The notes beneath the pieces were generated by a model, which did no database searches, was not told the origin of the DNA, and saw only the letters and a program-made list of their open reading frames with translations. Below, in pieces: positions 2,991 through 12,069 of a stretch of DNA of 64,000 bases; position 1 is the stretch's first letter, and each line of letters begins with the position of its first letter. Origin of the DNA: Mucilaginibacter sp. L294 (GTDB lineage: Bacteria > Bacteroidota > Bacteroidia > Sphingobacteriales > Sphingobacteriaceae); contig NZ_LGEK01000017.1 of assembly GCF_001636615.1 (NCBI RefSeq), positions 124,001-188,000 on the forward strand, written 5' to 3'. The position numbers and the translations under genes are program-made.

Positions 2991-3000
2991 TTTCCCCTTT

Positions 3001-3213
3001 GTCATCCTGAGCGATAGCGAAGGATCTAATTAACCTTCTATGTCATTTCGAACGAGCATAGCGAGGAGAAATCTTGTTCATTAGGCAAAGTGTAAGGTAT
3101 GCAAAGTTCGCAACCTGTCATATGAACAAGATTTCTCACTGTCGTTTCGAAATGACATATCACCCTGTCATGCAATGTTCGTCAATAGATGCTTCACTCG
3201 TTCAGCATGACAA
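3001..3213. repeat. GTCAT-type palindrome subtype A interrupted by subtype C
   Basis: Outer arms: GTCATCCTGAGCGATAG...GGATCTA at 3001-3028 and the complementary ATAGATGCTTC...CAGCATGAC near 3184-3211. Between them lies a complete second palindrome (3041-3157). This 336-bp gap between the aminopeptidase and the deacetylase holds only repeats and no gene. Confidence 0.7.
3041..3157. repeat. GTCAT-type palindrome subtype C, nested
   Basis: Left arm TGTCATTTCGAACGA...GAGAAATCTTGTTCAT, right arm ATGAACAAGATTTCTC...TTTCGAAATGACA, about 36-40 bp per arm and a ~40-bp loop. It sits wholly inside the loop of the subtype A palindrome. Confidence 0.8.
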
Positions 3214-3223
3214 AATGTTATAA

Positions 3224-4299: not shown

Positions 4300-5016
4300 A
4301 TGGCCCGATTATCCGTCAACATTAATAAAATAGCCACCCTGCGTAACTCACGCGGCGGCGACAACCCCAATTTGGTACAGGTTGCTAAGGATTGCGAACG
4401 TTTTGGCGCGCAGGGCATAACCGTGCACCCAAGGCCTGATGAAAGGCATATCCGCTACCAGGATGTGTTCGACCTGAAAAAGATAGTGACCACCGAATTT
4501 AACATAGAGGGTAATTGTCAGGAGCAAAAATTTATTGACCTTGTGCTGGCCAGCCAGCCCGAGCAGGTTACCCTGGTACCCGATGTACTGGGCCAGATAA
4601 CATCAAACCATGGCTGGGATACTATAAAAAATCAAGAATATTTAAAGGGCATCATCATGGTGTTTAAAGATGCCGGTATCCGTGTATCCATATTTGTTGA
4701 CCCGATTACTGAGATGGTAGAAGCTGCCGCCACCACAGGTACCGACCGTATTGAACTATACACCGAGGCCTACGCACATAATTACTCCACCGATAAAGAG
4801 GAAGCTATTACACCCTATGTAAAGGCCGCAGAGGTTGCCCACAAACTTGGCCTCGGTATAAACGCCGGGCACGACCTTGATCTGCAAAACCTGCAATACT
4901 TTGCGCAAAACATACCCGCGCTTGATGAAGTAAGCATAGGCCATGCCCTTATAAGCGATGCCCTGTATTATGGCTTAGAGAACACCATCCAAATGTATTT
5001 AAGGCAACTGGCTTAA
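4300..5016 (+). CDS. pdxJ: Pyridoxine 5'-phosphate synthase
   Basis: 238 aa, normal length. PdxJ condenses 3-amino-2-oxopropyl phosphate with 1-deoxy-D-xylulose 5-phosphate to form pyridoxine 5'-phosphate, the last ring-forming step of DXP-dependent vitamin B6 synthesis. Signatures: the N-terminal [41 protein letters not shown], and the C-terminal [12 protein letters not shown] and [13 protein letters not shown]. It is a cytoplasmic TIM barrel. Its stop codon overlaps the stop of the convergent T9SS gene by two bases, and its last codons are duplicated at 8512-8542. Confidence 0.97.
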
Positions 5017-5028
5017 CGTATAATAGTG
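4986..5028. repeat. pdxJ: Duplication junction, pdxJ-side copy
   Basis: The end of pdxJ and the adjoining T9SS 3' end recur at 8512-8554 with a single mismatch over about 43 bp, at an offset of 3526 bp. See the matching entry. Confidence 0.85.
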
Positions 5029-8000
5029 AGATTGCCTGATAGCAGGTTACAGCTTTTCAGGTCGATAATGTAGTAGTATACACCCACAGGTAAGGCTTTG
5101 CCATTGAATGTGCCATCAAATGGTGTGGCATACCCTTTTGATTGAAAAATCATTTTTCCTTCGCGGGTAAATACTTTTACCGTGCCGTTGGTGTAGTTTT
5201 CCATTCCTGTAATTTTCCAATAATCGTTAATGCCATCACCGTTAGGGGTGAAGGTGTTTGCAATATCAGCGCTTGATATACCGGATATCAATACTTTAAA
5301 CTCTTCGCGTGCGCTTTCGCAATTGCCCACATATTGGCTCATGTAATAACTGCGATTGGCCGTTACATTTACTTTAAACCTGCCGTTTTGCTGCTCATCA
5401 ATGGGGGCAGCGCTATTATTATCTTCATATAAACGATAGCCGTATTTGCTATTCGCATTGTTTACAGATAGTAAAGCATTGCCGGGGCTACATAACTGTA
5501 CATCACTCACATTTGGGGGCGGGAGAGCATCAGTCTGATCATAGATGGTGTAAACAAAGCCTTGCTCGCAATTCGAGCCATCGGTTATCTTAAGGTGGTA
5601 TGTTCCTGCCGTAACATTTAACAAATCAGAGGATGCTCCTTTATTTACACCATTATCATCAGTCCAGGTAAAATTAAGTGGTGTTGTGCCGGTAGCCTGG
5701 ATACCTTTAATGCTTCCGGTACCGGCAGAGCAATAATCATCATTTTTATGAATGTTGTTTGTAACAACGGTAAGCCCCGGATCACGTCCAATCGAATAGT
5801 TGATAAGGTATCGTTCGCAGCTGTTACTGATAGCGTAAATATCATACGTGCCGGCATCAATGCCGGTAAGTATAGGCGTTGAGGTATTGATGACCTGCCC
5901 GGTAGCGGTGTTTACCCATTTGTAAGAGTCAGGCAATACACCCGATGGATTCTGAAATATCACTTCTATACTGCCATTATTCTCATCACAGGTAGCATTT
6001 TTAAGTTTTTTGGTAAGGCCAGTGCCGTAGCTTACAGGCGCCTGTCTGGTAATAGCATAAACCGCAGTTTGTTTGCTACAACCATTATTATTAGCTGCAA
6101 TTAAATAATAATTACCGGTTGGCATACCTGTCAGATCAAGGTTGTTTGAAACTGCAATGTTGCCTGCATTATACCAGGTGTATTTTGTGGCTCCTGTTAC
6201 TTGTATATTGCTAATGCCGCCATTATCATATTGGCAGGTGGCTTTATTGATTATTTTTTGAGTTTCATCTATTGTGATGCCATTAACCTCAGGGATCTCT
6301 ATAAATTCAGTAGCAATCGGTGGGCAATTCGCGCTGTTAACGGTAAGCTTGTACCTGCCGGCGGGTACACCCGTAAGGTCTTTATTGTGGCCAACATCAA
6401 CACCTTGCTGGTTTGTCCATAAGTAAGTGCCGGTGCCGGTAACCTGTATATTGGTAATAGCCCCGTCGGCAACATTGCAACTGGCATCCTGTATGTTTTT
6501 AAGGGCTGTGTTTATGGCGATGTCATTGGCAATAAGTATTTCTATTGGCGATGAAGTGATTGGGCCGCAATTGCTATCATCTGTTACAGTTAAAGTGTAT
6601 TTGCCTGCGGGCTGGCCTGTAAGGTATAAATCTGTACCCACTTCGATTTGCTGTTCGTTTTTCCAGCTATATTTTATGATCCCTGTGCCGCCCGTTATAT
6701 TTATGTTTTTTATAGATCCATTTGGCTCGTTACAATTTGCGGATGTTTTAATAGGATTGGAGTCATCTATTCTTGGGCCGCTTTTAATTTCATAAATAGC
6801 CGAAGTGATTGAACAGAATGAATCGTCAACAACTAAATAATATTTGCCGGCTGGTTTATCTATCAAGTCGATAGCGTGCGATACTATTGTGTTGTTTTCA
6901 TCATACCAGGTATAATGTGCCGGCGTATTTACTTTGATACCTTTAACAGAGCCCAACTGGGGGCCGCAAACAGGGGTGACAATTATATCATTAGGCTCAC
7001 TGGTAAATCGTAATATTGAAAATTCTGAAGTGGCACCATTTAAGGTTGATGCTGCTATAATATTGTGGTTTAGTAGCGGGCCGTTATATTGCCATATACC
7101 ATTTGCACCGGTATTTACCGATTTAAATAATTGCTCGGGTTCGCAATTACTACAGGTTAAGCTGTAATAAAGGTCTACCCTGGAGTTTGGTGTAGCTGTG
7201 CCGGATATCGTATTTGTACTGCGATTACTGATTGTGACATAATAATCAGAAGGGTGATAATCGAAACTCTGGGTATCTCCTGTGACCTGGTAAGGATATG
7301 AAATATGATTGCATCTGAATACGTTATTTAAAAGTTCGATATTGTTTGAACCAATATTTAAAACTACACCACTCAACCCTTGCGGAACGGCCTGATTACC
7401 GTATCCTGAAAATAAATTACCGTCTTCTATATTAGGACCGCCTAACATCCCTCCGCCACTACAATAACCAAAAACTATGGCAGAACTAATATTATCAAAC
7501 ACTTTTGTGCCGGTGATGTCAGTGCCAAATTTATTACCATGTATTTTAAGGAAACAGTGTAATTGAATACTTAAGCCACCTGCAACTATATTATTGGCAA
7601 AATCAAACTCCTGCAAAAAAAAGCCTGTAGCTATAATACTTTGAGAAATACTCGGAGCGGGTATAACCTCTGTGCCAAGGTAATTGGTTCCGAACAGGTT
7701 GTTTTTAACAATTAATTTACCCGTATTATGTGGCTGGCCTCTGTTATCTTCCTGAAAAGCAGTTTGACCGTAAATAATATTTCCTTCCGCTTTAGTTTCA
7801 CCGCCAAAAACCAGGTCCCGAACAGCGTCAAAAGCCATATTGCTTGGCTGGTCTCCAGATAAGCCATCGCTTAACAGGCCGCATATGTTGCTGCTAACCT
7901 TAATATTAGAAGAAACATAATCATCCGATAAATACTGAAATTCGGAATTTACACTTAATCCAATTAGGAAGGATTCAAATCTGTTGCCTTTTTCCGGGCT

Positions 8001-8498
8001 CCCGAAAACAAGATTGCTGCTCGAAGTAGCGAAAATTGCATAGCTGGGAGCGGTTAAAATAGGAAAAGCCGGCGTACCGATTTGTATCTTATCTCCGTAA
8101 AAATAAAGGCCATAAATTTCAATGTCTTTTTGTTGTTTAATATAAAATAAGGCCCATGGTGCTATGTTATTATAATAGCTCATCTCAAGCTTGACTTTTG
8201 CGTCTCCAACTCCAAATTTAGTGCCCGATTGCGTTGTGCCGTCAATTGAAAGATTTGAAGAGATCTCAGGTAGTGGAGATACTATAATTATCGTCCTCCC
8301 CGCTTCACTTAGGTCCGGTATGTTAAAATTGATATGATCTTTAACTGCACTACCATTAGCTGCTGCAAGTGTTAGAGCTTCGCGTAGGGTGCCCGGGCCG
8401 CTATCGGCATTGCTGGTAACTACAAAAGTATCTGCTAAAGCAAGGGTGCAAAAAAGTAATAAAAAGACAATTGATAGTAAAAATTTCTTAGCAGGCAT
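5013..8498 (-). CDS. Giant surface protein: beta-helix plus SprB-like repeats, T9SS type B sorting signal
   Basis: 1161 aa. Signal peptide ~1-22 ([16 protein letters not shown]). Next comes a [15 protein letters not shown] segment typical of parallel beta-helix surface proteins, then ~450 residues of helix-like repeats rich in Asn and Gly. About six SprB-like Ig-type repeats follow, each with a C-x3-DGxI start, a YxWxN core and an LTGxPAGxYxLTV end. The C-terminus ([16 protein letters not shown]...LSGNLTIIR) is the gliding-motility-associated type B T9SS signal. The protein is expected to be exported and held at the cell surface; its ligand is unknown. It is the downstream member of a tandem pair, 40 bp after its paralogue and probably co-transcribed. 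Confidence 0.88.
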
Positions 8499-8511
8499 AT
8501 ATCATATAGGG

Positions 8512-8542
8512 CATCCAAATGTATTTAAGGCAGCTGGCTTAA
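8512..8542 (+). pseudogene. pdxJ: Duplicated 3' tail of pdxJ
   Basis: This stretch encodes I-Q-M-Y-L-R-Q-L-A-stop, the last nine residues of pdxJ, differing from the original (4986-5016) at one base. It has no upstream reading frame and is a relic of the tandem duplication that made the T9SS pair. It lies in the 40-bp gap between the two T9SS genes and overlaps the stop of the upstream paralogue. Confidence 0.85.
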
Positions 8543-11500
8543 CGTATAATAGTTACGTTGCCCGATAACAGATCGCAGGGGGTGTTTAGGTTAATGATGT
8601 AATAATAAACGCCTGCCGGTAGTTGAGTGGCTCCCTGCTTACCCTCAAAAGGGGTTGCGTACTGTTTTGATTCGAACACCTTTTGGCCGCCCCTTGTAAA
8701 TACCTGCACCACACTACCCGGGAATTTCTCTAAACCGGTTATCTTCCAGTAATCGTTAACGCCATCCTGGTTAGGGGTAAACGCGTTGCCGAATTTTACA
8801 TCAATCAAAATTACTTCTACGTGTACCCTGGTACGTGCACTTATGCATGTGCCTATGTTGTATGCTACATAATAGTCCCTTGTTTCGGTAACGTTTACAT
8901 TGAACGAGCCTTTTGTATTGGTTTGTAAAGGCGTCGACGAATTGTTGGTGTCATATAACTTATAGGTACCCGCGGCAGGGTTTACCACAGCCAGGTTAAC
9001 AGTTTCCGGCGAGCAGATCCTTTTATCGGTTAGCACCGGCGCCGGCGGGTCATAATGATGATTGCCAACTGCAATATGTTCTATAACAAGCGGTACAGCG
9101 CATGGGGTAGCATCGGTAACCACAAGGCGATAGGTGCTTTCGCCAATGCCATTTAAGGTTGGTGCGTTGCCGCCAACATCCTGCCCGGTTGCTTCGTTTG
9201 TCCATTTATAAGTATAAGGCTGTACCCCACCGGTTACGGCAATACCATCAATATGCCCAAGGTTTTGATCGCACTCATCCTGGGTAGCTACGGGGTTATT
9301 GTTATCTGCAAATGCAAGCAGCGGTGTTTTCTTCACCTCGAAAGGGCCAAGGGTTGAAGGGCAGCCGTATATATCAGTTACCATTACGCTGTAAAAACCA
9401 GGTGCCAGGTCTGTTACCTGATTGCTGTTGCCATTGCTTTGCGGTGTGTTATTCGCATCGATCCATTGAAATGATTGTGGTATTACATTCCCATTAAATT
9501 GCAGGTTAATACTGCCATTACTCAAATCGCAGGTAGCAGCAATAATATTTTGGCTGTAATTAAATGTTTCGGGAGGGAGGGCGTTAATCTGGAAGTAAGC
9601 ATTTTGTTCGCAAACGTATTGTTGCCCATCAATCACTACCGTTCTTTTAGCATAAAGGCGGTAAGTGCCCGGGCTTAAATTACTGCGGTTAGGGTAATTG
9701 TTTAGTGTGGTAGGCATGGTGTTGCCGTTCGGGTCATACCATTGAACAATATCAAAATTACCGGTTATAATAACACCACTTATAGCGCCATTGTTATTCC
9801 CGCAGGTTGTAGGTGTTCTAAAGCCGCCCGATATAGTTATAGAGTTAACCTCCGGCACATAAAAGCTAACTCCAGGTACTGTATAAGGGCTGCACTGGCT
9901 TTGATCAGCTACTTCTAAAGTATACAGGCCGCTTACTACGCCTGTAAGGTCTTTATTAGTACCTACCACAACCCCTGCCTGGTTGCGCCATTTATAGGTA
10001 ATAGGGCCAATGCCTGTATAATAAGTTATGCCGCTTATCGAGCCATTTTTTTCACCGCAACGTGCAGGTACCGCTGTGTAAGACGGATCATAATCAGGCC
10101 CCGGTTTTGGGGTGATAGTAAATGGCGCGGTTGTTACCGAGCAGCCGGCTTCATCAGATATGGTTAGGGTGTAGGTACCACCCGGGAGTACCCCCTGTTT
10201 GCTTGTTAATTTAACTTCACCGGCAGCGTTTTTCCAGGCAAAGGTAATATTGCCGGTACCACCCTGGAAGTTAACATCTACCGGGAAAAACTTTTGGCGA
10301 CATTCCGGGGTAGGCGGGAGGATGTTTTGTATTTTAATCCGCTGGTCGTTTATAATAAAAAGCTTTGTGCTTTTTTGGCAGCCACCGGGATACTGAACGG
10401 TTAGCTGGTAGGTGCCGGGCTGTAGGTTAGCAATGTTTTTAGTGTCGGCTATAGGGGTTAATGAACCGTTTTGCTCTTTTTTGTCCCAGTGGAAAAGCAA
10501 ACCGGTAAATGCCGGTTTTATGGTAACACTGCCTTTGTAATCGCAGGTAAATTGTTTAACCTCAATATCATTATCTTGTATCTCTAATGATGAGAATGGC
10601 GATGTGTTGTTATTACCATCTGTAGCGGTTGCAATAACAGGGCTGCTAATCGTTCCGCTGTATGTCCATTCTCCATTAGCATTAGAGTTTACTGTGGTGA
10701 TATAGGTTTTGCCCTGGCAGTTGGTATAACCGCAGGCATCGGCATAAAATAATTCTATTTTTGAGTTCGGTGTGGCCAAACCGGCTACTTTGGTGCCGCT
10801 AAAATTAAGCACCTTTACAAAAGGAACTGTGTAATAATTTGTTGATACGCTTATACCATATTCTTTATTGCAAAATATGCTGTTGCGGCTTATTAAAGCA
10901 TGGGCATCATTTAAGGCATCAATACCATAGCTGTTAAAGGCTATGATGTTTTTGGCGGCAGCAGCAGTGCCACCAATATTACCCGAGGCATTTGTACCCA
11001 CCCTTATACCTGCGCCGTTGCCCAGGTCGGCGGTGCCGGTTTTATCGGTACCAATTTTATTGCCTTCTATTTCAAATGTGGCGTTATCAATATATATACC
11101 GTAGTAGCGTTGCCCCGATACGATGTTATCAGTGATCTTGGCAATAAGGCCGTTAGTGCCATCAATTAAAATACCATACATTTTGCCAAAAGTGGCAGCT
11201 ACAAACAGCGGGATGTTTTTAAAATCGGCAGTGCCGGCAAAATTGGTACCTATTTTATTATTTTGAATGAGGAGCACATTAGTAGGTGATGCAAAATTAT
11301 AAGTACGTGAAACAGCGATATTGGTAACATTTGCAGATATCACATTGCCCATATTGGCATTAAGCCCCCCTATTGTAGCATTTTGATTGACAGACAAGCT
11401 AATGCCATATATATTGCTGTTTGCGGTAAACCCATCATCCAGCAGGCCTATGATATTGCTTTGTATTTTAATTTCACTAACACCATTGTAGTAGTTGTTA

Positions 11501-12069
11501 TAGGAATTTGTAATGGCATAGCTATTGCCGCTAATTACGTTTCCTTTACCGGGCGCTCCTATGGTGATAAACGAGGCATCCCCGGTAATAAAAATACCCG
11601 AATTTGCGTAGATACTGGGATTGTCAACCCTGGTTATTTTGTCAAAATTGCGAATGTATAGTCCATATATTTCAATGTTTTTTGCGGCCACATAACCATT
11701 ATAAATATCACCATTGATATTTAAACCGTTAAAATTAGCGGGAGATGTTTCGGGCTCAATAACAACCTTAGCGTCGGATACGCCAAAAACAGCGCCTGCT
11801 TGCGTGGTGCCATCAATGATCAGGTTTGATGAAACATAAGGTAATTGTGTTTTTAACCTGATGATGCGATCTGATACCAGCGACCCAGGTAGAGCAAACC
11901 GGATAATATCCTGCGTGGCAATACCATTGGCTGCCGCATTGGTTAAGGCTTCGCGTAAAGTGCCCGGCCCGGCATCGGCATTACTGGTAACGGTGAACGT
12001 AGCACCGAAACACAAGTGAGCGCAGAATAATATTATCGTGATGAGTAGTAAAGGTTTCTTCAAAAGCAT
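8539..12069 (-). CDS. Giant surface protein, paralogue of the neighbour; T9SS type B sorting signal
   Basis: 1176 aa from the Met at 12069, chosen because it starts a clean signal peptide (MLLKKPLLLITIILFCAHLC); an in-frame ATG 51 bp upstream would bury the signal. Same architecture as the 5013-8498 product: [15 protein letters not shown], an Asn/Gly-rich beta-helix region with a KIGTDKTGTAD-type repeat, about six SprB-like repeats, and C-terminal NAFTPNQDGVNDYWKI...LSGNVTIIR. The two diverge strongly in the middle, so the duplication is not recent for most of the protein, though both C-terminal ends are close. First gene of the pair, divergent from gcvP. Confidence 0.88.
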   Translation of the reverse strand: MLLKKPLLLITIILFCAHLCFGATFTVTSNADAGPGTLREALTNAAANGIATQDIIRFALPGSLVSDRIIRLKTQLPYVSSNLIIDGTTQAGAVFGVSDAKVVIEPETSPANFNGLNINGDIYNGYVAAKNIEIYGLYIRNFDKITRVDNPSIYANSGIFITGDASFITIGAPGKGNVISGNSYAITNSYNNYYNGVSEIKIQSNIIGLLDDGFTANSNIYGISLSVNQNATIGGLNANMGNVISANVTNIAVSRTYNFASPTNVLLIQNNKIGTNFAGTADFKNIPLFVAATFGKMYGILIDGTNGLIAKITDNIVSGQRYYGIYIDNATFEIEGNKIGTDKTGTADLGNGAGIRVGTNASGNIGGTAAAAKNIIAFNSYGIDALNDAHALISRNSIFCNKEYGISVSTNYYTVPFVKVLNFSGTKVAGLATPNSKIELFYADACGYTNCQGKTYITTVNSNANGEWTYSGTISSPVIATATDGNNNTSPFSSLEIQDNDIEVKQFTCDYKGSVTIKPAFTGLLFHWDKKEQNGSLTPIADTKNIANLQPGTYQLTVQYPGGCQKSTKLFIINDQRIKIQNILPPTPECRQKFFPVDVNFQGGTGNITFAWKNAAGEVKLTSKQGVLPGGTYTLTISDEAGCSVTTAPFTITPKPGPDYDPSYTAVPARCGEKNGSISGITYYTGIGPITYKWRNQAGVVVGTNKDLTGVVSGLYTLEVADQSQCSPYTVPGVSFYVPEVNSITISGGFRTPTTCGNNNGAISGVIITGNFDIVQWYDPNGNTMPTTLNNYPNRSNLSPGTYRLYAKRTVVIDGQQYVCEQNAYFQINALPPETFNYSQNIIAATCDLSNGSINLQFNGNVIPQSFQWIDANNTPQSNGNSNQVTDLAPGFYSVMVTDIYGCPSTLGPFEVKKTPLLAFADNNNPVATQDECDQNLGHIDGIAVTGGVQPYTYKWTNEATGQDVGGNAPTLNGIGESTYRLVVTDATPCAVPLVIEHIAVGNHHYDPPAPVLTDKRICSPETVNLAVVNPAAGTYKLYDTNNSSTPLQTNTKGSFNVNVTETRDYYVAYNIGTCISARTRVHVEVILIDVKFGNAFTPNQDGVNDYWKITGLEKFPGSVVQVFTRGGQKVFESKQYATPFEGKQGATQLPAGVYYYIINLNTPCDLLSGNVTIIR

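Follow-up and report, generated by a model that had tools for sequence, protein, structure and literature searches.

Between the housekeeping genes pdxJ and gcvP of Mucilaginibacter sp. L294, in the 64,000-nucleotide stretch of DNA analysed here (the window), lie two genes for giant T9SS cargo proteins, A and B, with a near-perfect second copy of the end of pdxJ between them (gene order pdxJ (+), A (-), B (-), then gcvP (+)). On our reading of the sequence, a gene of the A lineage was probably inserted between pdxJ and B, stranding the old pdxJ tail behind B. The event is of a known kind and is neatly recorded, with one testable twist, the promoter that the stranded tail may supply. The features on which the argument turns are as follows.

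4300..5016, + strand: pdxJ (pyridoxine 5'-phosphate synthase), full length (PF03740, 3.5e-94; NF003626, 3.4e-107)
4986..5027, + strand: repeat, reference copy: 31 bp from the end of pdxJ and the next 11 bp (3' end of gene A)
5013..8498, - strand: gene A, 1161-aa T9SS type B cargo of the putative newcomer lineage, sister of the G107 (MAG RYN_316) gene
8499..8511, - strand: 5' leader apparently retained by gene A, CCCTATATGATAT, close to the CCCTATATCATC of the G107 gene
8511..8512: joint, where the A leader adjoins the pdxJ tail
8512..8542, + strand: pdxJ tail relic, nine codons and a stop without an upstream gene
8516..8523, - strand: TACATTTG within the relic, a candidate -7 box matching Bacteroidota TAnnTTTG at 6/6 positions
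8539..12069, - strand: gene B, 1176-aa T9SS type B cargo, putatively resident, with the M. rigui gene as its sister

The stranded pdxJ tail

A direct repeat search of the window finds positions 4986-5027 again at 8512-8553, with one mismatch and an offset of 3526; extended further from 4986/8512, the direct repeat runs at 87% over 67 nt. Exact runs of 21 nt (4986-5006) and 20 nt (5008-5027) flank the mismatch (5007/8533), and base 43 of the repeat (5028/8554) is a second mismatch, so that the one-mismatch stretch measures 42 bp. An earlier note on this DNA had carried it to 5028 and 8554: its repeat and offset stand, but the ends move to 5027 and 8553. The relic itself translates as IQMYLRQLA-stop and differs from the pdxJ tail at 1 of 31 positions, a synonymous change (CAA/CAG), which bears out the claim that the last nine residues of pdxJ and their stop recur with no gene upstream. 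Likewise as described, pdxJ and gene A share 2 bp of their stop codons (5014-5016, +, and 5013-5015, -, respectively), and the idea that a pdxJ tail was carried along since the 3' border of the T9SS gene overlaps pdxJ fits 8512-8542, which is just such a stranded tail. Overlap between the stop codons of pdxJ and the adjoining cargo gene is frequent in Mucilaginibacter.

Searched with the repeat at the DNA level, the host genome (G000) yields two sites only, the original and the relic (E 7.1e-17 for the latter), and it contains one pdxJ match. The pdxJ-only tail score reaches 28.5 at the relic, compared with maxima of 13.5 in the other 100 loci and 15.5 in the shuffled controls (10 shuffles per locus), placing the relic above all controls and hence well beyond chance. 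It is present in 1 of 101 pdxJ loci, a set made up of the window and 100 loci fetched from among 143 genomes that match pdxJ. The check that the earlier note proposed, whether relatives with a single gene lack the relic, comes out as expected: none of the 100 other loci has it, including 42 with one cargo C-terminus. Among those 100 loci the other multi-gene arrays contain no pdxJ-tail relic by DNA, and at the protein level none of 14 further joints between genes in multi-gene loci exceeds the shuffled 95% level for the pdxJ tail.

A pattern search of 149 genomes shows the relic's 20-base tail to be identical in M. rigui (G049) and in five further genomes (G087, G105, G117, G120 and G136); its codons are therefore ordinary, and the source of the relic is not assignable by sequence. 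The tail pattern matched in 89 of the 149 genomes, the other 60 being ones in which a pattern search could not reveal a relic. Besides the host, two genomes (G094 and G126) have two matches each, the second on another contig, and in one (G039) the sole match lies off its pdxJ contig.

Two cargo lineages at a variable locus

Both A and B are T9SS type B cargo, with a C-terminal domain above the curated cut-off in each: TIGR04131 scores 68.5 bits in A and 50.8 in B (cut-off 35), and CHU_C (PF13585) scores 78.5 and 75.7 (cut-off 27). The likeness to this class is that of the sorting domain. Both also contain Ig_7 domains, and the SprB repeat is over the Pfam cut-off in B only and under it in A. 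Gene B is taken to start at an ATG; an upstream GTG would lengthen it to 12120. The host encodes SprA, the T9SS translocon component searched, at 2610 bits, a protein found in 0 of 14 control genomes. Our literature search on T9SS type B cargo in Mucilaginibacter found no paper. The earlier note had described a shared architecture with strong divergence in the middle: the domains are indeed shared, but at 37% protein identity (470 bits) the divergence runs along the whole length.

By sequence comparison A and B represent two lineages, both old, within one family of T9SS cargo. Among the matches listed, the nearest relative of A is the G107 gene, from another Mucilaginibacter (59% identity, 1412 bits), and as a relative of A gene B is outscored by at least 42 matches from other genomes, partial ones included, in a ranking where at most four candidates per genome were scored; the nearest relative found for B is the M. 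rigui gene, at 80-81% identity. A pairs with G107 at a support of 100 both in a 67-gene tree, from which genes were dropped if shorter than 450 aa or lacking the C-terminal motif, and in a 20-gene tree under a mixture model, and B pairs with M. rigui at 83 and 97, respectively, with M. aurantiaciroseus (G007) next. Constraining A and B to be sisters costs 693 log-likelihood units and is rejected (p-AU 1.08e-5) in a test on 20 of the 67 genes, picked after the first tree, for a pair that the earlier note had proposed. The tandem duplication of one gene by which that note explained the locus accordingly does not hold for the most part, as the two copies are not each other's nearest relatives.

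A version of the duplication model in which the copies of one tandemly duplicated gene diverged while gene conversion kept their borders alike would account for the shared architecture and the near-identical borders, but we consider it highly improbable: besides the rejected sisterhood, B shares 80-81% identity with the M. rigui gene and yet 37% with A, and the close match ends 11 bp beyond the pdxJ stop. Gene conversion or another exchange at the borders, which the earlier note had also invoked, is not needed, since after base 5027 the similarity of the copies falls to the level of coding ends and CGTATAATAGT, common to both copies, is also present in M. rigui, leaving no conversion tract that calls for explanation. 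Instead, the relic would be near-perfect because the joint is young, and A and B would be so divergent because their lineages are old.

Along the DNA, sliding identity places pdxJ, B and gcvP nearest to M. rigui at 77-92%, with one gcvP bin tied. Gene A is mostly best aligned to G107, at 79-83% where aligned within 5001-6500 and patchily beyond; at its 5' end another genome (G145) is level with G107, and its alignment to M. rigui covers 254 bases only, at the 3' end. On these comparisons the region mostly resembles M. rigui, with A as the one exception.

The fetched stretch reached gcvP in 95 of the 101 loci. Cargo C-termini between the two housekeeping genes, counted by tblastn with an overcount in at least two loci (L072 and L153), number zero, one, two and three in 40, 42, 9 and 4 loci, the window being among the nine, and 11 loci besides the window contain two or three genes that reach 450 aa. 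The pdxJ-gcvP interval of Mucilaginibacter (L033-L072, L103-L162) is in this sense a variable slot for zero to three giant T9SS cargo genes. In M. rigui and M. aurantiaciroseus a single B-type gene stands against pdxJ with overlapping stop codons; as B occurs there alone, the B state is probably ancestral in the clade and A the later addition. B-lineage genes lie against pdxJ in these two species and second in the array in five other loci (L046, L072, L135, L141 and L154), indicating that the order of genes in the slot has changed. The spacer from cargo gene to gcvP is about 720 bp in M. rigui (L033) and mostly about 100-200 bp in the other single-gene loci listed.

The joint and the proposed insertion

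The 13-nt leader of A is similar to that of the G107 gene and dissimilar to that of B, which suggests that the joint was probably made with an A-type gene; the M. rigui leader, ACCTATTTTTT, has a few bases in common with it. Directly upstream of the A leader, where G107 has its -7 region, runs the pdxJ tail in reverse, so that in the present map an A-type promoter region is absent upstream of the leader, and B-type sequence directly follows the relic. Inspected by eye, with G107 as a proxy for the donor upstream sequence, the pdxJ continuation and the A-type upstream share no run across 8511/8512, with a short ATACnTTT resemblance beside the joint.

This map would be explained by a single illegitimate joint in which an A-type leader was attached to a pdxJ-B chromosome. 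The ancestor would have been pdxJ-B-gcvP, like M. rigui and M. aurantiaciroseus, and A, of another lineage of the same cargo family, would have entered between pdxJ and B. On the pdxJ side the incoming DNA may have paired with the recipient's pdxJ end, whereas on the other side the A leader appears to have been linked to the resident pdxJ at a point 31 bp short of the end of its stop codon and with no clear homology, a process that would amount to homology-facilitated illegitimate recombination (HFIR). The predicted outcome is pdxJ-A-[pdxJ tail]-B-gcvP, with pdxJ intact and a 31-bp scar behind B. Sliding identity reveals no clear donor tract: taken as a whole pdxJ resembles M. rigui, and its final 60-base bin, matching M. 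rigui at 50/60 and G107 at 52/60, does not discriminate. The homologous side would thus lie within the last tens of bases of pdxJ, or else the donor was near-conspecific. The G107 gene, just 59% identical to A, does not single out a donor, and the native upstream of A is seen by proxy only. The host has dprA and comEC, as do 10 of the 14 control genomes; these genes permit transformation without demonstrating it and say little.

To HFIR, as outlined in PMC3240628, the resemblance would lie in the one illegitimate joint; in L294 a scar alone is seen, and the homologous end, donor and transfer route are conjectural. In the orphan immunity arrays of the Vibrio cholerae T6SS, by the growth proposed in PMC5361080, a horizontally acquired module is likewise added next to an older one, with a conserved border as its presumed anchor; here the older gene is whole, and the leftover is the 3' end of a housekeeping neighbour. 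Allelic exchange of surface proteins between lineages in Porphyromonas gingivalis, as summarized in PMC5266723, offers a further parallel, in a member of the Bacteroidota, in that surface-protein variants move between lineages, but in L294 the alleles are stacked rather than swapped.

An identical final map would result from two steps, a tandem duplication that left the relic and a later allelic exchange that replaced one copy by the other lineage, and the tree suggests that lineages at this locus follow no single order. Such a history requires two events, however, and with an A-like leader at the joint and B-type sequence beyond the relic, the swap would have to have ended within tens of bases; we regard it as unlikely.

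The map could also be an assembly artefact, in which pdxJ-A-gcvP and pdxJ-B-gcvP alleles of mixed cells were laid end to end and the relic is a branch-point k-mer. The assembly is a draft of 285 contigs, the start of the relic lies exactly 21 nt ahead of the sole mismatch, as fits an assembly-graph branch, and the end of A falls within about 1 nt of the point where A-type (G107 as proxy) and B leaders diverge. Against this, the draft has the look of an isolate assembly (99.95% completeness, 0.08% contamination, contigs as short as 383 bp), the joint contains no N, a blunt join would give the assembly graph no overlap to use, and eleven other loci also have two or three genes of 450 aa or more. 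A scan of 587,854 bases of the host genome (582,317 unmasked, about 11% of the genome) returned 34 rows of exact repeats of at least 20 nt within 10 kb, two of them the pdxJ repeat; of the 16 rows inspected for open frames and flanking identity, 15 concerned other repeat pairs, and none of these 15 was recognised as the stranded end of a neighbouring gene. Three are adjacent pairs of diverged frames with short exact matches (C3 (L214), C4 (L215) and C20 (L231), at offsets of 1324, 1566 and 774). They look like ordinary paralogues and are probably tandem ones, but they weaken any claim that nothing similar exists and to that extent speak for the artefact, which we judge fairly unlikely. Insertion of an A-lineage gene remains our preferred reading.

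A candidate promoter in the relic

Gene A begins 40 nt past the stop of B on the same strand, and TACATTTG sits within the relic 17 nt before the ATG of A. Expression of A could therefore come from read-through from the promoter of B, which is the plain guess, and/or from the TACATTTG box at what would be its native distance. The counterpart box of the G107 gene, TACCTTTA, matches at 5/6 positions and likewise stands at 17 nt, although some box-to-ATG distances in the family are doubtful because some start codons are. In Flavobacterium psychrophilum the -7 box covers -12 to -5, according to PMC9723704, and the same spacing would put the predicted +1 at 8511, at the joint itself. The match was noticed after the fact, and among 717 simulated cuts through pdxJ in antisense, 5 yield a 6/6 box at 15-19 nt and 52 a box of at least 5/6. 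By eye, the relic shows no obvious counterpart of the TTTTAC-like -33 element that lies upstream of many family genes. The proposal that a newly inserted surface gene took its core promoter from the 3' coding end of a housekeeping gene in antisense is accordingly tentative, and we hold it to be possible but doubtful.

Upstream of many cargo genes a GTGACAATGGTTTTACA-like element recurs, with the TTTTACA beginning some 19 nt ahead of the -7 box, and by its sequence it looks like a shared -33 region or an operator.

If the insertion is real, the locus preserves a readable scar of a variable surface-gene locus in the Bacteroidota growing from one gene to two, and of growth in which genes from distinct lineages are stacked between constant housekeeping neighbours, not copied. 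It would also make a modest, testable example of antisense coding sequence turned into a promoter. Should the promoter reading hold, insertions here would have been filtered by landing behind an antisense box, and such a box would be available wherever the Gln-Met-Tyr of pdxJ is written CAA ATG TA(T/C).

Elsewhere in the window, short dispersed TTGTCATGCTGAGCG-type repeats occur in direct orientation at 629-648, 2947-2966 and 2999-3018 and inverted at 697-722 and 3198-3217, and resemble REP elements.
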